In this document: positions 2,238-48,716 of the stretch, one piece after another
How the letters are laid out: each line of letters begins with the position of its first letter
Numbering within the stretch: the first letter of the stretch is position 1
Assembly: GCA_019744775.1 (NCBI GenBank)
Contig: JAIETZ010000001.1
Coordinates: 496,001-560,000 of the forward strand
Reading direction: 5' to 3'
Length of the DNA stretch: 64,000 bases
DNA from: Candidatus Obscuribacterales bacterium
GTDB taxonomy: Bacteria; Cyanobacteriota; Vampirovibrionia; Obscuribacterales; Obscuribacteraceae
Notes under the pieces: generated by a model
Told to the model about the DNA's origin: nothing
The model's input: the letters and a program-made list of their open reading frames with translations, nothing else
Databases searched by the model: none
Made by a program: the position numbers and the translations under genes

Positions 2238-2672
2238 ATGCCCAAGACACAACAGTTACCACAACTAGCAACGAGACTATCAAGTCCTGATCTACAGAGA
2301 TTCGATAGGTTAGCCGAAGAAAAAGGCTGGACAAAGGCAGAACTTGCTCGTGAGGCAATTCGCTGGTATCTCGATCATCAAGACGATGTACAAAGCAGTA
2401 AACGTGACGGTGTATATGCGAAAGAAATTCGCAAAATGACCGACCGTCTGGTTGCCTTCCTGGTGCCGATGCGGCGCGAAATCTCAGCACTGGTACATCT
2501 CAGTTATTACAACATCGAAGACAAACGGCAACTGAAGTCAGCCCTTAAATTCGCCTTCGATCAAATGCGCAAGCAATTGCCTGCAGAAGAACGAGCCATT
2601 GCCGATAAATTCAGGCAACAACTAGAACAAATGGCGGTACCTGATGAAAGCGGGCAAAGAAGCAATTCATGA
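2238..2672 (+). CDS. Ribbon-helix-helix relaxosome accessory protein
   Basis: 144 residues. Residues about 10-46 (LATRLSSPDLQRFDRLAE then GWTKAELAREAIRWYL) have the strand-helix-helix pattern of ribbon-helix-helix DNA-binding proteins such as NikA/MobC/TraY, which bind oriT and recruit the relaxase. The C-terminal 90 residues are helical and probably mediate oligomerisation or contact with the relaxase. The stop overlaps the ATG of the relaxase (ATGA), a sign of translational coupling. The role is inferred from the domain and the neighbour; target DNA sites are not identified. Confidence 0.8.
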   Translation: MPKTQQLPQLATRLSSPDLQRFDRLAEEKGWTKAELAREAIRWYLDHQDDVQSSKRDGVYAKEIRKMTDRLVAFLVPMRREISALVHLSYYNIEDKRQLKSALKFAFDQMRKQLPAEERAIADKFRQQLEQMAVPDESGQRSNS

Positions 2673-4663
2673 TACCTATTCATACATTTATCTCTGCCAA
2701 AGTCAGATTGCGCCAATCTGGTGGGAAGTGGGCGGTTGCCAAATCAAAAGCCGTAGGGGCGGCAATTGCGCACGTGAAATATATAGGCAACCGTCCAGGT
2801 CAGGACCTAGAACCAGGTGGCAGGAAATTCTTCGACGATGAGAAAGACAGCATCGATGGCAAAGACATCCGGGAATGGGTCAAAGACCAATATCCCGGAG
2901 GAAATGTTGTTGTTCACAAACTAACCATAGCCCCAGAAATAAACCTGGAACCAGAAGATGAAAAGATCTATGCAAGAACAATAATGCAAGAGTTGTCGAA
3001 CAAACTTGGCCAAGATATCGATTGGAAAGGAGTTCAACATAACAACACCGACAATCACCACGTGCATTGTCTGGTTGCCGCCAAAGACAAGAGCGGACGA
3101 GACGTAAGAATTTCTTTGGATGACTGTGAAGCCTTGAAGCGTGCCTCCGATGAATTTCTATCCAGAGAATATCCGCGAATCTGGGAACTAGTAGTAGAGC
3201 CCAAGAGGAATGAACGTGAGTTACCTGTTGTCGAATTGATCAAGGAAGAGAAAGCACATCCGAGTCTGCCCGCGCCAAAAGAACGCGAACGATTGCCATT
3301 TTTAGGGGCAAAGAAGAAAGCAATTGTAAAAGAACTTCTCATGCCCTATGGGAAGTGGAAAGAGTTGAACAAAGGACCTGAAGATATAGATAGCTTCAAA
3401 ACCGACGCAATTGTCTATGAAGGCCGGGAATATACCTATGCCACAGATCTAGACAAATTAAAGAGTCTTGACAGTAGCTTATGGGAAAGACCGCCTGATG
3501 AATGGTTGCCTAGAGATGAATACATCAAATTACGAGCCTGGATTCATGGCAGGGAGGACAATCCCGATTGGAAACCAAAATACAACTACCTAAAACCTTC
3601 CCTCGATCCTGATAAATTCCGTTTTGACGGACAGGAATACACAAAAGACACTGACCGCCTGGCATTTCGCGATTTAGCCAAAAAACTCTATCAATTAAAT
3701 AAGGCAGAACGAGAAGCCGGCGAATCCATTACTAGATTGGCTCCTGAAGACAATGCCAAATTCCAATACTGGAAAGAGGACAAAGACCGCCTTTGGGGTC
3801 AAGAAATAGTACGCGACATGCGTTCCGTAAGAGACGAAGACAGACCATATGTATCCTCCAAGAAAAAACTGATTCTAAAAGAACTGCAGTGTCCCTTTCA
3901 AGAATGGATAAAAGAACATCCCGGTCCAGAACCAGTGAACGAGGAAGAGGTTGAGGCAAATGCACATCGGTACAACTATTTAGAACATTCAAGCCCTGAT
4001 TCAGATGGGTTTATTTTCAAATATGGCAATTACACAAAAGAATATACAAAGGAAAGTTACCTCTGGGAATTCAAAGATCTGGCAAAGACCTTATACGAAA
4101 TCAACCAACAAGAAAGAGAAAACAACTACCCACTGACTAGGCTTCACCCTGAAGACGACGCCAAATTCAAATACTGGAAAGAACTAAAAGAGCGCCAGTG
4201 GGGAGAGCGCTTTCTTAAAGAACTAAAGGAGAAAAGATTCGACCTGCCCACCGCCGAAGAACAACAATTGGAGTTGCAAGAAAGGACAATGGGCGATGCC
4301 GGTCACGGACCTACCGCTTCCATTATTTTGCAGGATAGTAAACGTGGCAACGAACAGTCCACGGCAAAACTGATTGAACTGCCACACGATGAACTGGAAC
4401 AAATTGACAAATATCTAGAGGAGTTAAGCCAAAGCAAATATCAAGACTGGCTCGTCCGCAAGGGACCCGATATGCAGAAACTTAGACTTGATGATGACCG
4501 CGCAATCTATGAAATTGCGGACACAAGAAGCCAAGTAAAGGATGTACGAAAAACTCGCGACCGCGAATTGGAGAAACAGCGTCGAATGAAGGAGGCACTA
4601 ATGCTTGGTCTTGAAGCCTATGAACTAGGTCAACAAAGACTGGACGACGACCTTGAACGATAA
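2669..4663 (+). CDS. Relaxase (HUH mobilisation endonuclease) with duplicated C-terminal region
   Basis: 664 residues. The N-terminal 170 residues carry the relaxase signature: probable nicking tyrosine in HVKYIGNRPGQD (Tyr at about residue 38), VVHKLTIAPE as an internal strand, and the metal-binding motif HNNTDNHHVHCLV (about residues 127-139), as in VirD2/MobP-type enzymes that nick oriT and pilot the strand to the recipient. From about residue 212 a module beginning KKKAIVKELLMPYGKW is repeated from about residue 395 (KKKLILKELQCPFQEW); both copies end in FRDLAKKLYQLN- or FKDLAKTLYEIN-like and KFxYWKE segments. The first copy has an extra insertion. The tail is charged and helical. The gene lies between the RHH protein and the coupling protein. 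Confidence 0.9.
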   Translation: MIPIHTFISAKVRLRQSGGKWAVAKSKAVGAAIAHVKYIGNRPGQDLEPGGRKFFDDEKDSIDGKDIREWVKDQYPGGNVVVHKLTIAPEINLEPEDEKIYARTIMQELSNKLGQDIDWKGVQHNNTDNHHVHCLVAAKDKSGRDVRISLDDCEALKRASDEFLSREYPRIWELVVEPKRNERELPVVELIKEEKAHPSLPAPKERERLPFLGAKKKAIVKELLMPYGKWKELNKGPEDIDSFKTDAIVYEGREYTYATDLDKLKSLDSSLWERPPDEWLPRDEYIKLRAWIHGREDNPDWKPKYNYLKPSLDPDKFRFDGQEYTKDTDRLAFRDLAKKLYQLNKAEREAGESITRLAPEDNAKFQYWKEDKDRLWGQEIVRDMRSVRDEDRPYVSSKKKLILKELQCPFQEWIKEHPGPEPVNEEEVEANAHRYNYLEHSSPDSDGFIFKYGNYTKEYTKESYLWEFKDLAKTLYEINQQERENNYPLTRLHPEDDAKFKYWKELKERQWGERFLKELKEKRFDLPTAEEQQLELQERTMGDAGHGPTASIILQDSKRGNEQSTAKLIELPHDELEQIDKYLEELSQSKYQDWLVRKGPDMQKLRLDDDRAIYEIADTRSQVKDVRKTRDRELEKQRRMKEALMLGLEAYELGQQRLDDDLER

Positions 4664-4712
4664 AAGGTCATATTCAACTAATTTACAGCAACAGATTTAA
4701 GAGAGAAATACC

Positions 4713-6692
4713 ATGCCATCAGAATATAAGACTTCATTTTTTCTACCATTGCCACAACATCATTTTGTTGAGGCCGTTACACAAGGGCTTAAGGAAATTG
4801 GTTTCCATCAGCCAACCAACAGCACCACCTTTCGTCGATTGTCGGCAACTTTAAAAATCCACGAACGACCGTTCGAATATGAGTTTGCCGCCAGTGTCAG
4901 TTGGTCACCAGCCAATGGAGGCATAGAGGCAATATTGACTATAAGCGAAGCCAAGCAAGGTGACATGGCGCACCGCTGCAAAGCCCGATGCGAGCAATTC
5001 ATGAAGATAATTGAGCCAATGGTCAAAGGTGTGGAGGATATTTCGACACAGCCAGTCTCAAACAGATATGGTTCGGCTCGTTGGGCAGTCATACCTGATG
5101 ATCTTGAGGCAAATGACTTTCTAACTACATATGCAGCCAATGACAGATTTCTATTGGCAAAACTAAACGGCAAATACGTAACAGTTCCGCCAAAAATAAC
5201 AGATGCCCATGCAGCAATTATTGGACCGGCCGGTTCGGGCAAATCCACTGGGTTCCTTATCCCAAATCTTATCGAGCGATATGCCACAAGCATGATCGTT
5301 ACTGAAGCCACCAACAACGAAGAAGAACAAGCCGACATATTTAACAAGACCGCAGGATTTAGAAGAGATATGGGTCAAGAAATCTATTGGTTTAATCCAA
5401 CACTTTTGAACTCAACAAGAATCAATCCCCTTGATTCAATTACAGATGCACCAGCGGAAAAACGTCTATTTGAGGCTCAAAAACTTGCACACCTAATTAT
5501 TCAAAACAGCCAAGACAGGTATAAGAAGGACGACCACTGGGACAAATCAGCCTATTTGTTGTTGATAGCCCTCTTCATGCAAGTGGTCGAAGGCATTGAC
5601 GATCGCAAATACAAACACTTCGGCACTCTGCTTGAACTTTTACGGTTGGGACCGGATGGCTTAAGTGAGTACATATCCAAAAGTCAGTCCGAAAGTGCCA
5701 GACAACGCTATGAGGTGTTTTACAACAACTCAGGTCCTGGACACTCCAGAGGAGTCATATCAACTCTTGTGCCGAAACTGGACTCATGGATTACGCCACA
5801 GGTAATTACATTGACATCGAAGACAGACGTCTCCTTAGAACAACTAAGCAAGCAACTCTTCACATTCTATCTCTCCGTCCCATCGACACGGGATGACCTT
5901 AAACCACTCACCGCCATGATCTTCAACTACCTTTTGGGAATTCTTAGGTACAGGCCATTTAAGCAGCCATTGGCCTTCTTACTTGATGAGTTCTCCAACT
6001 TCGGTTACATCCCGTCGTTTCACAGCATCTACACAACCATAAGAAAAAGCGGCGTTCCGTTTGTATTGGGGTTTCAAGATCAGGCGCAATTAGAAGATGT
6101 GTATAACCGCAATAAAAGCCGCATTATCCTAAACAATACCGCCACCAAGATTTACTTAACTCCTTCGCCTAACGACAATATCCAAGGAAGGCTCATATCA
6201 GAAGCCCTGGACAAGAAGACGGAAGTGGAAATAGTCACGTCGCCAACAGGACACACAACAACGCGCGAATACGGTCGGTTCCTAATGACCACCGGCGAAG
6301 TCCTATCCATGGGCAAAGAATACGCCCTTGTATTTTCGACCAGCACAACGGGCAACCTGCCACCGATGAAACTAACCAAATTCCATCCTGCCGAATATGA
6401 ATGGGCAGAGAAACAAAGTACGGCTCCCACACGAGCTGATCATGTGTTTGGAGACATAACGTTTCCACTGCCCAAGGTAAAGAAAACGGCAGGCATGCAA
6501 GGTCTAAATCAAGGTGGTTTTAATAAGTCCTTCAAAGGCGAGACACCAAGAAAAAGGACACAGGTGCCGTTAAGCAAAAAAACCACCAACGAATTCAAAG
6601 AATCGTCCACTTCGGAATGTGACATTCCGCCCCATAAAAGAGATCTGGATAGAGAAGGGTACGGTGAAATGCCCGATGATTTCTTTACCTAG
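4713..6692 (+). CDS. Type IV coupling protein (VirD4/TraG-like ATPase), no membrane anchor seen
   Basis: 659 residues. Walker A GPAGSGKST is at residues 171-179 and Walker B LAFLLDEFSNFG at about 419-430, followed by the SGVPFVLGFQDQAQL segment typical of TraG/VirD4 proteins. These hexameric ATPases bring the relaxase-DNA complex to the secretion channel. The usual pair of N-terminal transmembrane helices is missing: residues 1-160 look soluble and globular. The C-terminal 90 residues are basic and disordered. It is 49 nt downstream of the relaxase, in the same direction. With no VirB genes in view the element may be mobilisable rather than self-transmissible. The end overlaps the convergent gene at 6689 by 4 nt. 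Confidence 0.92.
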   Translation: MPSEYKTSFFLPLPQHHFVEAVTQGLKEIGFHQPTNSTTFRRLSATLKIHERPFEYEFAASVSWSPANGGIEAILTISEAKQGDMAHRCKARCEQFMKIIEPMVKGVEDISTQPVSNRYGSARWAVIPDDLEANDFLTTYAANDRFLLAKLNGKYVTVPPKITDAHAAIIGPAGSGKSTGFLIPNLIERYATSMIVTEATNNEEEQADIFNKTAGFRRDMGQEIYWFNPTLLNSTRINPLDSITDAPAEKRLFEAQKLAHLIIQNSQDRYKKDDHWDKSAYLLLIALFMQVVEGIDDRKYKHFGTLLELLRLGPDGLSEYISKSQSESARQRYEVFYNNSGPGHSRGVISTLVPKLDSWITPQVITLTSKTDVSLEQLSKQLFTFYLSVPSTRDDLKPLTAMIFNYLLGILRYRPFKQPLAFLLDEFSNFGYIPSFHSIYTTIRKSGVPFVLGFQDQAQLEDVYNRNKSRIILNNTATKIYLTPSPNDNIQGRLISEALDKKTEVEIVTSPTGHTTTREYGRFLMTTGEVLSMGKEYALVFSTSTTGNLPPMKLTKFHPAEYEWAEKQSTAPTRADHVFGDITFPLPKVKKTAGMQGLNQGGFNKSFKGETPRKRTQVPLSKKTTNEFKESSTSECDIPPHKRDLDREGYGEMPDDFFT

Positions 6693-7348
6693 ATCGACTC
6701 AAAGTTTTGCGGGTTCATGGTCCTCGAAATAGCCAGCATTGTGACCGAGTCACACAAATATCCATGTTCCAAGACAAGATTACAACCTTTCAATGCCGAT
6801 CCTGTTGTGCAAACATCATCGATCAATACAAATGTCGGAAAAAATTCTTGAACAACATTGTTATCGACTACTTGGATTGAATCAGCATGTTGTTTTGGTG
6901 CCCATTTTTCTTTCGGCTTTTTCCCTTTTATACGCCTCAGAATATCTGCAACTACAAATCGCTTGTCGAGTTTGGCCAATTCGCGACAAAACAGTAAATT
7001 GCGGTTATCTCTGTTTCGTGGGCTTGTGTTACTTCTGGGCTCTGTTGAAAAGTTCTTTGAATTGAATGCTGTAGATGACGGCACCGGCACCAAATAGACT
7101 GTGGAGATTTTCTTCTTTTTGAGAGCATACTGTATTAGTTGTACAAAAGGCGCCGCAAAATATTGTATGTCCTTTAGCTTTCCTTCTTTGTAATTTAGGA
7201 CCTCCGGGGAGTAACTGCCACTTTTCCAGTCTGCTTTGTCGATAGTCTCTTCTTTTACAGCATCATAGGGATAGTAATAAACCAGGTATCCCATACCGGC
7301 ATTATCATCGTAAAACGCATGAGGATAACGGTCTATGTTTACGGTCAT
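6689..7348 (-). CDS. Phosphoribosyltransferase-domain protein, ComFC-like
   Basis: 219 residues. The motif FVLIDDVCTTGSAL at about residues 170-183 is the PRPP-binding signature of type I phosphoribosyltransferases. The upstream sequence YLVPVPSS and the order of elements resemble ComFC, but the zinc-finger of ComF is absent. Its ATG overlaps the stop of the DprA-like gene (ATGA), so the two form a coupled pair. In competence, ComF and DprA both act on incoming single-stranded DNA; here they lie in a mobile element, so a role in handling incoming or transferred ssDNA, or in DNA-based defence, is more likely than natural competence. The reaction and substrate are unknown. Confidence 0.85.
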   Translation of the reverse strand: MTVNIDRYPHAFYDDNAGMGYLVYYYPYDAVKEETIDKADWKSGSYSPEVLNYKEGKLKDIQYFAAPFVQLIQYALKKKKISTVYLVPVPSSTAFNSKNFSTEPRSNTSPRNRDNRNLLFCRELAKLDKRFVVADILRRIKGKKPKEKWAPKQHADSIQVVDNNVVQEFFPTFVLIDDVCTTGSALKGCNLVLEHGYLCDSVTMLAISRTMNPQNFESI

Positions 7349-8076
7349 CTAAGTATGCTTTTGAGCTCGTCAGCATTTTCCACAACTATGGCGCCATTAT
7401 TAATAAAGCCGGGCACCCAGGACAATGATTGGTTAGTGGCAAGCGACTTCAGAAAAATCAATTTTCTGCCTTGTTTTAAGCATTCCGATGCTTGGTGGAT
7501 CACCCCAGAGGTCGGTCCAGCCTCTATGACAATTGTTGCCACAGACAGTTTGGCCATCAATCGATTTCTTCTGGGAAAGAGAAACTTGCCATGTTCTTCC
7601 TCCGGTGTACTTGTACTTACAAGTAGCCCTTTGTCGGCAATCTCGGCGGCCAAAGCTTTGTTTTCAGCCGGATAAATCTTGTGTATTGGTGTTCCCAAAA
7701 CCGCAATTGTTGCCCCACCTGCGGACAAGGCGGCTTTGTGGGCAACGGTGTCGATGCCTTTGGCCAAACCGGACATAACAGGAATGTCCAACTCGCACAA
7801 AACAGAACTGACCTTTTTGGCCCGCAAAATTCCTTCTTCCGATGGGTTCCTTGTACCGACCACGGAAACCACATTTAACTTCAGGAGATCTAGGTTGCCC
7901 TTAAAAAACAAGTGTTCGTAGTCTGAACCTAAGTGCGGGAGTTGACGCTGCAATACTGTCTTTGCCAGTAGTCCCGCATTCCACTTCTTTAAATAGTCAG
8001 CGAATTGATTGGTCAATTGCATATCCTGAATCATATCAATTCCGGGGAGACCTAATTGATATCCGACATTTATCAC
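7345..8076 (-). CDS. DprA/Smf-like Rossmann-fold protein
   Basis: 243 residues, shorter than usual DprA. The core signature is clear: VVGTRNPSEEG near residue 70, GLAKGIDTVAHKAAL, TIAVLGTPIHKIYPAEN, then FLFPRRNRLMAKLS near residue 167 and VIEAGPTSG. These form the DNA- or nucleotide-binding Rossmann fold of the DprA/LOG superfamily. The N-terminal SAM domain is reduced and the C-terminal winged helix of full DprA is missing. It is the first gene of a two-gene unit with the phosphoribosyltransferase. Chromosomal DprA loads RecA on ssDNA; a mobile-element copy paired with a PRTase could protect or sense ssDNA. Function inferred only. Confidence 0.87.
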   Translation of the reverse strand: MINVGYQLGLPGIDMIQDMQLTNQFADYLKKWNAGLLAKTVLQRQLPHLGSDYEHLFFKGNLDLLKLNVVSVVGTRNPSEEGILRAKKVSSVLCELDIPVMSGLAKGIDTVAHKAALSAGGATIAVLGTPIHKIYPAENKALAAEIADKGLLVSTSTPEEEHGKFLFPRRNRLMAKLSVATIVIEAGPTSGVIHQASECLKQGRKLIFLKSLATNQSLSWVPGFINNGAIVVENADELKSILR

Positions 8077-9127: not shown

Positions 9128-9186
9128 AAGTACTACCTCCAGAATGAGCGTGTCTTTGGCGTCACACTACTGGAGCACGGTTTACG

Positions 9187-9273
9187 TCAAGCAGCCACCG
9201 GAGGTGGCAGTGAGGAATAAATGGAGGGGACCCGCTTGCGGGGAGTCGCCGTTTATGCCGGAGCGGTGCTTGA
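9187..9273 (-). ncRNA. Folded leader element, copy 1 (candidate cis-RNA or ssDNA promoter)
   Basis: The element is closed by TCAAGCA (9187-9193) and TGCTTGA (9267-9273). Inside are GCCACC-gga-GGTGGC (9194-9208) and CCCGC-tt-GCGGG (9231-9242), joined by a conserved purine-rich link. A homologous copy stands at 9753-9835 before another gene. Similarity extends from about 9131 to 9296, including a TTGACG box and the ribosome-binding site of the gene at 8729-9127. Conserved fold with changed sequence in one arm supports real structure; I do not recognise it as a known RNA family. Confidence 0.6.
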
Positions 9274-9372
9274 TGTGTTTGTGCGTAAGTAAACTTAAGA
9301 CAAAAGGCGAGCCTACGATCCTTAGTGAATGCGATGAGCTTCAATGTCCTTGCAGCACATCGAAAGGGCAAT

Positions 9373-9408
9373 AAAAAAAGCGGCCAAGTCCTAAGACCTG
9401 ACCGCTTT
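9373..9408 (-). terminator. Intrinsic terminator of the 90-residue gene
   Basis: On the minus strand a 14-bp stem (AAAGCGGTCAGGTC with GACTTGGCCGCTTT, two G-T pairs, loop TTAG) is followed by a run of seven T. It starts 3 nt after the stop at 9412. Confidence 0.85.
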
Positions 9409-9411
9409 AAA

Positions 9412-9684
9412 CTAACAACCGATATAGACCCCGAAGAGCCCTGGACGATCCTCTACATAATCATAGAGGTCATAGTCAAAGTCCGGTTCTACTGGATCAG
9501 CAAAGTCGTTCCATTCACTATCGACAATGCCGGTCATGATGAATTCACGGTCCGCCGGATCCAGATCGGGCATGACCTTTTGGATTAGTTCGCCTGCTTG
9601 CCAGCGATGCAATTGTTCCTCAGTCACCGCCATTTCAAGCGTCCGCTCGATACCGCTTATCATTGAAGTGCGTGTAATTTGCAT
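9412..9684 (-). CDS. Small plasmid/phage-type protein of unknown function
   Basis: 90 residues, starting MQITRTSMISGIERTLEM and containing QLHRWQAGELIQKVMPDL and REFIMTGI. From memory this matches a small protein often found on proteobacterial plasmids and phages (ITRTSxxxGxxRTxxxxVT...WxxGxLIQxxMPxLxxxxREFIMTG), with no established function. The C-terminal third is acidic (EWNDFADPVEPDFDYDLYDYVED). It follows the second folded leader (9753-9835) and has its own terminator. Probably acquired with the mobile element. Confidence 0.8.
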   Translation of the reverse strand: MQITRTSMISGIERTLEMAVTEEQLHRWQAGELIQKVMPDLDPADREFIMTGIVDSEWNDFADPVEPDFDYDLYDYVEDRPGLFGVYIGC

Positions 9685-9752
9685 AGTCTATACCTCATGG
9701 TTTAGTGCGCCTTGGCGGCGTCAACCTCTCTCCACCGGAGCGCTAGTTTGCG

Positions 9753-9835
9753 TCAAGCAGACCCGCAGGGTCAGCGAGGATTAAATGGGGGGACCCGCTT
9801 GCGGGGGGCACCGTTTATGCCGCAGCGGTGCTTGA
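9753..9835 (-). ncRNA. Folded leader element, copy 2
   Basis: Same layout as the element at 9187-9273: TCAAGCA (9753-9759) pairs with TGCTTGA (9829-9835); the first hairpin is GACCC-gca-GGGTC (9760-9772), different in sequence from copy 1 but still paired; CCCGC-tt-GCGGG (9794-9805) is identical. The link with TAAATGG and the segment CCGTTTATGCCG are conserved. Similarity covers about 9690-9854 and reaches the ribosome-binding site of the gene starting at 9684. Confidence 0.6.
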
Positions 9836-9878
9836 TGCGCCTGCGCGTAGGTAAAATAAAAAGACCCGCCCCGCAATA

Positions 9879-10420: not shown

Positions 10421-10795
10421 TTAGGCGGCAGCCGTTTTAGATGGTTTTCTCCTTTGTCGATTGGTTGAGTTTTCAGCAGACTTCGGTCTTGCACCACAAA
10501 CATCAAACTTATTCAGTTTCACAACTGGTTTCGTATGGATTTTTCCATCTTTTTTCGACTCGTACTCTTCAATTGCCAAATCGCCTTGGACGATGACTTC
10601 TCGTCCGGCAGTGATTATGGAAACCACAAGTTCAGCAAGTGCGCCCCATGCTTCAATATTGATCCACATTGGTGGCTCTGTTGGTCTGTAATGATTTTTC
10701 ACCGCGAGTGAAAATCGGCAGACTTTTGAGCCAGAGTCAAAATCTGTAATCTGGGGTGTTTGACCTACATGACCGGATAAAGTGACGTTGTTCAT
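10421..10795 (-). CDS. ssb: Single-stranded DNA-binding protein
   Basis: 124 residues with AAGGAG ribosome-binding site. The OB-fold is recognisable: MNNVTLSGHVGQTPQI, FSLAVKNHY, WINIEAWG and REVIVQGDLAIEEYESKKDGK. SSB coats ssDNA during replication, repair and transfer. The usual acidic C-terminal tip (DDDIPF-like) that recruits partner enzymes is absent; the tail is basic (RQRRKPSKTAAA). That makes it a specialised SSB, fitting an element-borne copy that only needs to protect transferred strands. It is preceded by a 126-nt imperfect hairpin and followed by a hairpin terminator. Confidence 0.9.
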   Translation of the reverse strand: MNNVTLSGHVGQTPQITDFDSGSKVCRFSLAVKNHYRPTEPPMWINIEAWGALAELVVSIITAGREVIVQGDLAIEEYESKKDGKIHTKPVVKLNKFDVCGARPKSAENSTNRQRRKPSKTAAA

Positions 10796-10811: not shown

Positions 10812-10937
10812 GGGTAGTCCTTACGCGGTTAAGGAACCACCGATATCAACTCTTTCTAGGGGTGCCGGAGGCATACATCTTGCCCCTAGAAAGATAAGTT
10901 GGTATCTGTGGTAGCTTGGGCGTAATAGGACTAACCC
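10812..10937 (-). promoter_or_regulatory. Long imperfect hairpin upstream of ssb
   Basis: The two arms pair along almost their whole length: GGGTAGTCC and TTACGC (10812-10826) with GCGTAA and GGACTAaCCC (10920-10937); GATATCAAC with GTTGGTATC; CTTTCTAGGGG (10852-10862) with CCCCTAGAAAG (10883-10893); and a tip TGCC-gga-GGCA (10863-10873). It ends 17 nt before the ssb ATG. Such foldback before ssb recalls the ssDNA promoters of conjugative leading regions, but it could also be a structured mRNA leader or ssDNA origin. Confidence 0.55.
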
Positions 10938-11175
10938 GGAGAGATTTAAAATGCAATCTCGCACAGAGGCAATTGGCAAACAACCCACGAACAGATGCTG
11001 ATTGGTTAGTGTCCCGTGATAACGTGGTGAACAATTCCAGTCCACAGCAATGTCTTAGATGAAGCTGGGCAAAGTTTGCTACATGATGGCTCCTAATAGT
11101 GCAAGTGAGAAGTCACTGAAAGAAACGGGATCTAGTAAAAGGCAAGTTCCAGACAGAACCTACCCTAAATGGAAA

Positions 11176-11691
11176 CTAGTCAATTAATTTGGTCAGTTGC
11201 CGACGAGCATTGTGAATACGACTTCTGGCGGTTCCTAATGGTATATCTAAGCGTTCGGCTATCTCCTTGTACCTGAAACCTTGAGCCACAAGCAATAAGA
11301 TTTCTCGATAAATCGGATCTAGTTTGTTCAGGGCCTTAATAGCAGCACCTATCTCTTCGCGCATGACAGCATAGTCATTTCGTTGCGATGGGTAATGAAC
11401 TGTTGTCTCTCGTACCTGTACGCACGAAGTTACTGGATCAAATGAATACTGCGGATTGACCAATTGATTGTAATTATTTTGCCGGCTATAAAAGTCATAA
11501 GCGGTATTTCTTACTGCCGTCCTCAAATATGCCCGGCATCGCATTGCAGCAGCCATTGCCTTTTTGTGACGGCAGAAATTCAAAAGTGTTGTTTGAGCAA
11601 TGTCTTCAGCATCATGAGATGAGGAAGCGAATTCCGAAGCAAGAAAATGGACTTGCTTGAATATTAGATTGAATGTTCTGGAAACGAGCAT
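11176..11691 (-). CDS. ECF-type RNA polymerase sigma factor
   Basis: 171 residues from the ATG at 11691, chosen because AGGAGG stands 6 nt before it; a longer frame from 11754 has no such site. Region 2 (HDAEDIAQTTLLNFCRHKKA then RAYLRTAVRNTAYDFYSRQ, about residues 25-75) and region 4 (LDPIYREILLLVAQGFRYKE then IAERLDIPLGTARSRIHNAR, about 120-165) are both present, with no extra domain. It directs polymerase to its own promoters. No anti-sigma gene is adjacent. Its target promoters are unknown; the ssb and leader elements next to it are candidates. Confidence 0.9.
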   Translation of the reverse strand: MLVSRTFNLIFKQVHFLASEFASSSHDAEDIAQTTLLNFCRHKKAMAAAMRCRAYLRTAVRNTAYDFYSRQNNYNQLVNPQYSFDPVTSCVQVRETTVHYPSQRNDYAVMREEIGAAIKALNKLDPIYREILLLVAQGFRYKEIAERLDIPLGTARSRIHNARRQLTKLID

Positions 11692-11731
11692 AGTTGTCCT
11701 CCTACGTGTTGAAAGAAACAACGCAGAGGAC

Positions 11732-11792
11732 ACAGGGGCGGCTCTGCCAGTCAAGCCTGTACTTGCTTGACGGGCGGTGGTGCTGCCCCTGT
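11732..11792 (-). promoter_or_regulatory. Hairpin in the leader of the sigma-factor gene
   Basis: ACAGGGGC (11732-11739) pairs with GCCCCTGT (11785-11792), and GTCAAG pairs with CTTGAC inside. On the minus strand it lies about 40 nt before the sigma-factor start. Confidence 0.5.
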
Positions 11793-47430: not shown

Positions 47431-48618
47431 GTGAAAAAGCAGGATATGAGCAAACCGCCCAAACTTGGTGAAATGCGGAACGGAATATGGCATCGGTATC
47501 CGAATGTCTATATCGTCGCAACGACCATAGACGGAAAGCGCCACCAACGCTCTTTCGGCAACGACTATGAAGCTGCTGTCCTGTATATGGATCGCCTGAA
47601 TCAAGAGAGGCGTCTGAAGAAACTTCGTGGAGAAAATCCAGTCCTAGATCAAATTGCACACAGCAAATCGGGAATCTCCGTTAAGGAGGTTCTCTTAAAC
47701 TATTGCCGAACAAGAGAGCAGTTTTTAAAGCAAGGAACTATTGAGTCCTACAAATACTTGCTCAATCGATTAGCGCCTTTATGGAAGGTTGAAGCGGAAA
47801 GTCTAAGCGTTGCCGAAATCTCAAAATTCATAAGCTCTCTGAAGAGCGCTGGACTAAGCAATAAGACTATCCGAGAACTTATTATGCTGTGCAGATCAGC
47901 ATTTAATATGGCAATAGATCACGACCTAATTGCTGCACACCGAAATGCATTTGCAAAAATCAAAGCTCCGGTCATAGAAAAACATGAACCACAACCGTTC
48001 AGTGAGGAAGAGATTGAAGCAATTTTCGAAGAACTTAATCCTAGGCTTCGACTGATGTTTTGGGTTCAATTTTCCACTGGCTTACGCACCGGTGAACTAA
48101 TTGCATTACGGTTTGGTGATGTAGATTTCCAGCGGAACAGAATCAACGTCCAGAGAACCCGCAGACACGGCTTAGAAAACGCGCCAAAAACTAAAAGTTC
48201 TCTGCGTCAAGTATTTATGCCTCCAGATGTCAGAGCTGCTCTTCTAGAACTGAAGACTGTACGAAAGGCAAAGAAAGATGACTATCTATTTTTGACTCAG
48301 TACGGATTACCTTATGCAGATGTGCCGGTTGAGGCTTGGAAAGATGCAGTCGAGAGAGCCGGTGTTGAATACAGAAGGTGTTACACACTTCGGCACAGCT
48401 TCGCCTCTCATGCTCTAAGCAACAACGTGCGTCTGTCGTATGTATCGGAAGCCCTTGGGCATAGTTCCGTCAACGTCACTGCGCAGAAATATATACGGCA
48501 CATTCCTGATGCAAACTCGGAAGACGAGAGCAAACTTGCCAAATTATCGAAGAAGTCAGGTACTAAATTATCTTCTTCTTGCCGCGGTTTTGCCGCGGTC
48601 GCCAAGAAGAAGGCTTGA
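47431..48618 (+). CDS. Tyrosine recombinase (site-specific integrase)
   Basis: 395 residues from GTG 47431 (ATG 47446 is an alternative). An N-terminal arm-binding-like region (NGIWHRYPNVYIVATTIDGK) and a core-binding domain (about 80-175) precede the catalytic part: TGLRTGEL (Arg), KTKSSLRQVF (Lys), YTLRHSFASHAL (His-x-x-Arg), LGHSSVNVTAQKYIRH (His and nucleophile Tyr). It cuts and joins attachment sites to integrate or excise the element. It lies 26 nt from the 3' end of the tRNA-Ile2 gene, pointing to that end as the attachment site. The Lys/Ala-rich tail is AVAKKKA. Confidence 0.95.
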   Translation: MKKQDMSKPPKLGEMRNGIWHRYPNVYIVATTIDGKRHQRSFGNDYEAAVLYMDRLNQERRLKKLRGENPVLDQIAHSKSGISVKEVLLNYCRTREQFLKQGTIESYKYLLNRLAPLWKVEAESLSVAEISKFISSLKSAGLSNKTIRELIMLCRSAFNMAIDHDLIAAHRNAFAKIKAPVIEKHEPQPFSEEEIEAIFEELNPRLRLMFWVQFSTGLRTGELIALRFGDVDFQRNRINVQRTRRHGLENAPKTKSSLRQVFMPPDVRAALLELKTVRKAKKDDYLFLTQYGLPYADVPVEAWKDAVERAGVEYRRCYTLRHSFASHALSNNVRLSYVSEALGHSSVNVTAQKYIRHIPDANSEDESKLAKLSKKSGTKLSSSCRGFAAVAKKKA

Positions 48619-48644
48619 AACGCTCACCAGGCTTGAAAAAATTA

Positions 48645-48716
48645 TGGCTCCAACTGGATTCGAACCAGTAACCAAGCGATTATGAGTCGCCTGCTCCACC
48701 ATTGAGCTATGGAGCC
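48645..48716 (-). tRNA. tRNA-Ile2 (anticodon CAU, lysidine type)
   Basis: A complete cloverleaf: acceptor GGCTCCA/TGGAGCC, D-stem GCTC/GAGC, anticodon arm GGCGA-CTCATAA-TCGCT, T-arm ACTGG-TTCGAAT-CCAGT, discriminator A, no encoded CCA. The anticodon is CAT. The anticodon arm equals, as far as I recall, that of E. coli ileX, whose C34 is changed to lysidine by TilS to read AUA, so this is Ile2 and not Met. Probably the integration site of the neighbouring element. Confidence 0.93.

Follow-up and report, generated by a model that had tools for sequence, protein, structure and literature searches.

Results

Two related hairpins in an integrated mobile element

The DNA analyzed here, a 64-kb stretch of a Candidatus Obscuribacterales genome that we refer to as the window, contains two related hairpin elements, E1 and E2. 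Both sit inside an integrated mobile element of about 58 kb: a tyrosine integrase gene abuts a tRNA gene at its right end (Table 1), and a copy of the tRNA end, at least 20 nt long, lies 58 kb to the left of the tRNA gene, at L152:9723 (about position 486222 of genome C1). Judged by eye, the cargo of the element includes heavy-metal efflux-type genes. The mobilization block encodes a MobA/VirD2-type relaxase (E = 4e-5, just under the Pfam cutoff) and a small MobC-like protein that has no Pfam match. The genes for a DUF7007 protein and a 90-aa acidic protein start 60 to 70 bases to the left of E1 and E2, respectively; since an intrinsic terminator is predicted from 9408 to 9377, these two minus-strand genes are separate units. 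A search of viral contigs with the DUF7007 protein gave no match.

Table 1. Features of the window that bear on E1 and E2
Feature	Position	Strand	Remarks
Mobilization block: MobC-like protein, relaxase, VirD4/TraG coupling protein	2238..6692	+	
ComF-like gene	6689-7348	-	Assigned by eye; in minus-strand run 6689..8076
DprA gene	7345-8076	-	PF02481; in minus-strand run 6689..8076
Gene beside E1, DUF7007 protein, 132 aa	8729..9127	-	PF22653, E = 4.5e-19; GGAGG ribosome site 5' of ATG
E1	9176..9290	+ (fold strand)	Outer stem ACGTCAAGCA/TGCTTGATGT; extra 6-bp hairpin within 5' arm; conserved core
E1 conserved core	9209..9266	+	Match to covariance model R1, 67.7 bits
E1 -35-like box, TTGATG	9270..9275	+	3' arm; consensus match; predicted duplex, mean unpaired 0.06
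E1 -10-like box, TAAACT	9290..9295	+	3' arm; consensus match; predicted mostly open, mean unpaired 0.66
Intrinsic terminator 3' of 90-aa gene	9377..9408	-	Predicted from sequence
Gene beside E2, acidic protein, 90 aa	9412..9684	-	No Pfam match
E2	9742..9856	+ (fold strand)	Second copy of E1
E2 conserved core	9773..9828	+	Match to covariance model R1, 64.0 bits
E2 -35-like box, TTGATG	9832..9837	+	3' arm; consensus match; predicted mostly unpaired, 0.65
E2 -10-like box, TAAAAT	9852..9857	+	3' arm; consensus match
ssb, single-strand DNA-binding protein	10421..10795	-	PF00436; same minus-strand run
Long hairpin directly upstream of ssb	10818..10945	+	Unrelated to E1/E2; no R1 match
ECF-type sigma factor gene	11176..11754	-	Same minus-strand run; homologue adjoins the element in L029
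Tyrosine integrase gene abutting tRNA gene	47431..48716	+ (integrase); - (tRNA, 48645-48716)	Right end of integrated element

E1 and E2 are diverged copies (84% identity across 110 bases; E = 2e-25) that take the same fold on the plus strand: besides an outer stem and a long irregular arm, it has a small hairpin within the 5' arm. The pairings described in an earlier note on this DNA were found letter for letter: the outer stem TCAAGCA/TGCTTGA at 9187-9193/9267-9273 and 9753-9759/9829-9835, the hairpin CCCGC-tt-GCGGG in both elements, and a first hairpin that reads GCCACC-gga-GGTGGC in one copy and GACCC-gca-GGGTC in the other. However, the extent given there for the elements, which ended at the outer stems, was too narrow, as conservation runs from about 9176 to 9290 and from about 9742 to 9856. 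With RNA parameters, E1 folds better than shuffled sequences (z = -3.7); E2 taken alone does no better than its shuffles (z = -0.8), so that the structure is not provable from one copy, and it is the family, whose outer arms are complementary despite sequence change, that supplies the proof. A stretch identical to the E1/E2 region is present in a second genome of the genus (G001).

The same note had read the elements as leaders of small genes that directly follow them, with the ribosome site inside each element. This reading finds no support: the plus strand has only frames of 5 and 14 codons at these places, and the adjoining genes are on the minus strand, so that a plus-strand RNA would be antisense to the flanking operon.

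A hairpin family with a nearly invariant core

By blastn, the core was located on plasmids of Xanthomonas, Curtobacterium, Shinella, Paracoccus, Morganella, Citrobacter, and others, as well as in same-family relatives, and a covariance model, R1, was built from 23 sequences. Pattern scans picked up 82 stretches in 84,980 genomes and nine in viral contigs, which R1 confirmed. R1 and the pattern scan yielded more than 100 copies, with hosts in the Obscuribacterales, the alpha-, beta-, and gammaproteobacteria, the Clostridia (Moorella), and the Bacteroidota, in addition to plasmids of Actinobacteria and nine inovirus contigs. The core of about 50 bases, GNGGAATAAATGG-(A)GGGGACCCGC-loop-GCGGGGAG-CCGTTTATGCCGC, is nearly invariant from Moorella to Brucella. 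Based on these comparisons, the family appears to be a previously unlisted class of DNA hairpins common to conjugative elements and filamentous phages of several phyla.

Within the window's own genome, R1 detected no further copies, and a phylum-wide search with stricter filters returned only this genome and one weak match; the family is not general in the phylum. Rfam 15, searched at gathering and relaxed thresholds, gave no usable match in the window and none in eight other family loci, which bears out the view that no described RNA class is involved. Homologues with covarying pairs were thus found and an Rfam match was not, the two points on which the earlier note had staked its finding. 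Comparison of an inovirus copy with named phages by blastn gave no match, and hence this copy is not tied to an isolated phage. Plasmid pBCJ2315 has no family member, though its methyltransferase is 67% identical to one beside a family element. A 25-nt match in an Arsenophonus plasmid (L149) was rejected as a member because R1 did not match it.

Several copies may be carried by one element, with three in L022 and L092 and two in the window, L028, L079, and L085. In L092, L079, L085, L071, L110, and L022, two or three copies lie within a few kilobases in one leading region, and these have different outer stems and the same core. In a Rhodocyclaceae contig (L115:2427-3584), the element is found just 3' of what by eye resembles a phage-type replication gene, with an integrase downstream; this contig is possibly an inovirus-like satellite.

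Pairing is conserved, and the plus strand folds

Outer-stem sequence is hardly common between lineages, yet its complementarity is kept: among 22 nonredundant members, the real pairs of arms matched clearly better than did swapped arms at all 12 positions, and pairs of many types occurred. The R1 helices have both-sided changes in four pairs. These compensated changes in outer stems and hairpins, seen throughout the family, indicate selection on structure, as had been proposed from the two copies in the window. The core contains a T-G pair that is invariant as well as G-A oppositions, and helix 2 varies from G-C to G-T. On the fold strand, isolated outer-stem mismatches are G-T in 28 cases versus A-C in 10 and A-G in 18 versus C-T in 10, and in 56 of 58 members this strand forms the more stable fold; these counts, like those below, come from related loci and do not represent independent events. 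Based on the invariant T-G pair, the excess of G-T over A-C, and the stability comparison, it is concluded that the plus strand of the window is the folding strand.

Neighboring genes lie on the opposite strand in plasmids

Orientation was scored by homology to annotated leading-region genes, a greedy open reading frame caller having been dropped as too noisy in GC-rich loci. In all 59 members that have a recognizable leading-region gene, this gene lies on the strand opposite the fold strand. The closest such gene to the left, where one lay within 1.5 kb, was on the minus strand in 42 of 42 cases, and annotated plasmids agree. The genes encode N6/N4 methyltransferases, DUF932 proteins, SSB, ParB, TrfB, Fic, and KfrA-like proteins; the methyltransferase beside some 20 alphaproteobacterial copies was assigned to PF01555 through its Burkholderia homologue. 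In the inoviruses, by contrast, the fold strand is the coding strand, and therefore the virion strand, in nine of nine contigs, and the element lies outside genes. Genes that are opposite in plasmids but parallel in inoviruses cannot both be explained by an RNA leader. The sole feature common to the two settings is a single-stranded DNA form, this strand being the one that would arrive single-stranded; the pattern fits the folding of single-stranded DNA.

Promoter-like boxes occur on the 3' arm

The 3' arm is enriched in matches to -35 and -10 consensus boxes, with a mean z of +0.77 for 44 members; the corresponding value for the left arm, read in the opposite direction, is -0.13. Among 27 distinct members, the predicted mean unpaired probability was 0.15 for the -35 box and 0.55 for the -10 box, although AT-rich -10 boxes tend toward the unpaired state anyway. 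A predicted duplex -35 box together with an open -10 box is found in E1; E2 has only the open -10 box, its -35-like box being predicted as mostly unpaired because the isolated 210-base fold of E2 rearranges. The patterns differ between groups: TTGCCG-N18-TATAAT in Moorella, TTGACn-N15-TAnnnT in Steroidobacteraceae, and TTGnTG-N14-TAAnnT in E1, E2, and L029. An individually good pair of boxes (z > 1.65) is present in only 8 of 44 members, and the boxes are poor in a large alphaproteobacterial group. Because the boxes are weak in many members, the invariant core must serve some further role.

The type-A copies of the Obscuribacterales (L008-L012, L019, L020, L041, L066, L094, and L121) have TTGACn-N7-TAnnnT about 60 to 70 bases 3' of the core, a spacing that is 10 bases short of that of a normal promoter; several of them also carry boxes resembling TATAAT on the 5' side of the core, at a distance of 11 bases. 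Outside the family, the hairpin upstream of ssb has TTGGTA-N18-TAATAG on the 3' arm of its plus strand.

The fold strand and the transferred strand

Judged by relaxase polarity, the fold strand would be the transferred strand in about 15 relatives and the opposite one in the window, L056, and L099; polarity is ambiguous in L036/L094 and gives no clear reading in L126 and L131. The relaxase and oriT are on the predicted side in R388-like elements (L022, L028, and L148), in MOBP (L144 and L150) and MOBQ (L143) elements, in L146 and L158, and in six Obscuribacterales loci. Relaxase polarity in pBEN of Paracoccus also agrees with the prediction. Entry of R388 into the recipient is known to begin from its stb side (PMC3098194).

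In the window, the block encoding MobC, the relaxase, and the type IV coupling protein lies on the plus strand, to the left of E1 and E2; in relatives it is on the minus strand. With oriT 5' of mobC, as is usual, the minus strand of the window would therefore be transferred, and E1 and E2 would fold on the wrong one. A search for oriT upstream of mobC revealed nothing beyond an 8-bp inverted repeat. Either the position of oriT is unusual in this element, or a module has been inverted and E1 and E2 are now idle.

Discussion

In this study, we have shown the fold of E1 and E2, the strand on which it forms, the family to which they belong, the geometry of the adjoining genes, and the presence of promoter-like boxes together with their predicted pairing. 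We consider it likely that members of this family are single-stranded DNA promoters, or start sites for primer RNA, that resemble Frpo in their working and are unrelated to it in sequence; RNA polymerase binding, promoter activity, its timing, and the role of the invariant core are what we infer from the features above. It can be envisioned that the element arrives in a new cell in the form of one DNA strand, which folds back on itself so that the stem gives RNA polymerase a -35 box that is double-stranded and a -10 box that is already open. The 3' arm would be the nontemplate strand and the 5' flank the template; the RNA would run toward the 5' end of the incoming strand, through the opposite-strand gene that adjoins the element. 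Once the second strand had been made, the hairpin would be gone and the promoter switched off. Filamentous phages would use the element on their virion strand for nothing more than starting the complementary strand. The neighboring genes (methyltransferase, DUF932, SSB, Fic, and ParB) are of the kinds that early expression would need, protective genes most likely being turned on without delay in this way, and the DUF7007 protein encoded beside E1 is a candidate early-expressed, possibly antidefense, protein. The invariant core may serve as an upstream contact site of RNA polymerase or of some other universal host factor.

An alternative is that the hairpins only initiate second-strand synthesis, by way of DnaG primase, a PriA primosome, or an RNA polymerase primer, and that they lie close to genes because the leading region offers free intergenic space there. 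Such a role suits the inoviruses, where no opposite-strand gene comes next, and a nearly invariant core far from the -35 and -10 boxes suggests a dedicated recognition factor; however, a site of this type needs neither the uniform strand of the neighboring genes nor the enrichment of promoter-like boxes on the 3' arm, nor would it call for several copies in one element, every one immediately upstream of its own opposite-strand gene. We therefore regard it as unlikely. A structured plus-strand RNA (leader, riboswitch, or small RNA) would have the strong covarying fold that we observed, and methods for RNA folding cannot separate RNA from single-stranded DNA. A leader would nevertheless hold its orientation to its gene, which this family does not do, the window has no plus-strand gene downstream, and every scored neighbor is antisense; with Rfam empty as well, this explanation is improbable. 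Least probable of all is an ordinary double-stranded operator or promoter, with inverted repeats as the binding site of a dimeric repressor, by analogy with the CUP elements of IncN plasmids, to which ArdK binds. The repetition of copies upstream of leading-region genes is like that of CUP elements (PMC6289460), and one match is in an IncN/IncP-type plasmid with a gene annotated as CcgAII, but a duplex operator keeps its sequence and not its pairing, whereas the outer arms vary freely and stay complementary. The preference for G-T and G-A over A-C and C-T mismatches also means that one strand matters, and the family is common to inoviruses and to hosts of several phyla that have no common regulator.

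A separate question is whether E1 and E2 themselves still function as the proposed single-strand promoters or are displaced relics, left on the nontransferred strand when the mobilization block or the leading module was inverted. The polarity of the relaxase block, opposite to that of six relatives within the same taxonomic order, speaks for relics; on the other hand, E1, E2, and their genes are intact, the stems are compensated in both copies, and an identical stretch is kept in G001. On balance, we think it doubtful, albeit a real prospect, that the two copies have lost their function.

The family is reminiscent of the Frpo and ssi elements (Frpo1-2 of F and ssi2/ssi3 of ColIb-P9), which form transferred-strand hairpins with a duplex -35 box and an exposed -10 box and, like the present family, occur in several copies per leading region, upstream of opposite-strand genes (PMC9849209, PMC11541004, PMC7736820). 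Frpo folds to rebuild its -35 and -10 boxes and is required in vivo for early expression in recipients (PMC9849209), and the single-stranded DNA methyltransferase gene M.EcoGIX lies downstream of an Frpo-type promoter (PMC7736820). Unlike Frpo, which is about 300 bases long, members of the present family span about 115 to 200 bases and have a nearly invariant 50-base core at the hairpin tip that recurs in several phyla and in inoviruses. R1 had no match in positions 48000 to 68000 of F at E ≤ 10, and no F-like plasmid was among the blastn matches listed. From these comparisons, the family appears to work like Frpo/ssi without being a member by sequence, with a core that is unusually broad and conserved.

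In the complementary-strand (minus) origin of M13-type phages, a hairpin on the virion strand is the site at which RNA polymerase starts the second strand; its sequence is not known to resemble that of the present element. The inovirus members of our family are also on the virion strand; the present element is shared with conjugative elements, and there it adjoins genes. The CUP elements found in IncN plasmids such as pKM101 have in common with it the repetition upstream of leading-region genes; however, they have been described as duplex operators bound by ArdK, with no shared single-stranded fold reported (PMC6289460), and in our plasmid search most IncN plasmids had no match to the family. 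Likewise, the STAXI motif of Rfam is a repeated folded motif near ssb and antirestriction genes for which its authors considered a possible action as single-stranded DNA (PMC2864571), but it consists of pseudoknot repeats, and our family matches no Rfam entry. The Frpo-like candidates of Samuel et al. 2024, for which the same role in the leading region is proposed, were found by BLAST with known Frpo sequences or from four islands (PMC11541004). Some of these candidates may overlap with the present family; no earlier description of it was found in the literature searched, the supplementary sequences of Samuel et al. (PMC11541004) lying outside this comparison.

Single-stranded DNA promoters have so far been well studied essentially only in F- and ColIb-type plasmids of enterobacteria. 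If our interpretation is true, there is a second, unrelated class of them, present in more than one phylum, that a single short model can detect and that connects inoviruses with conjugative elements, so that leading regions and early antidefense genes could be located in bacteria where Frpo searches fail. We tentatively suggest, as a possibility that falls somewhat short of an even chance, that one ancient single-stranded DNA signal, its core preserved almost unchanged in Clostridia, Proteobacteria, and Obscuribacterales, serves second-strand initiation in filamentous phages and, in conjugative elements, both this initiation and the expression of antidefense genes; it would be a second, nonhomologous class of single-stranded DNA promoter, contacted by a universal host factor mainly at the core in the hairpin tip rather than at the -35 and -10 boxes. 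This raises the question of which host factor reads the invariant core on single-stranded DNA.

Two further features of the mobile element deserve mention. An AbiEi/AbiEii toxin-antitoxin pair (L152:15970-17561, plus strand) lies in its left part and reads toward mobC; if the minus strand is the one transferred, this region would be the true leading region. Furthermore, the 128-base hairpin upstream of ssb folds far better than shuffled sequences on either strand (z = -5.7 on the plus strand and -6.0 on the minus strand), and it looks like a second, unrelated single-strand promoter.
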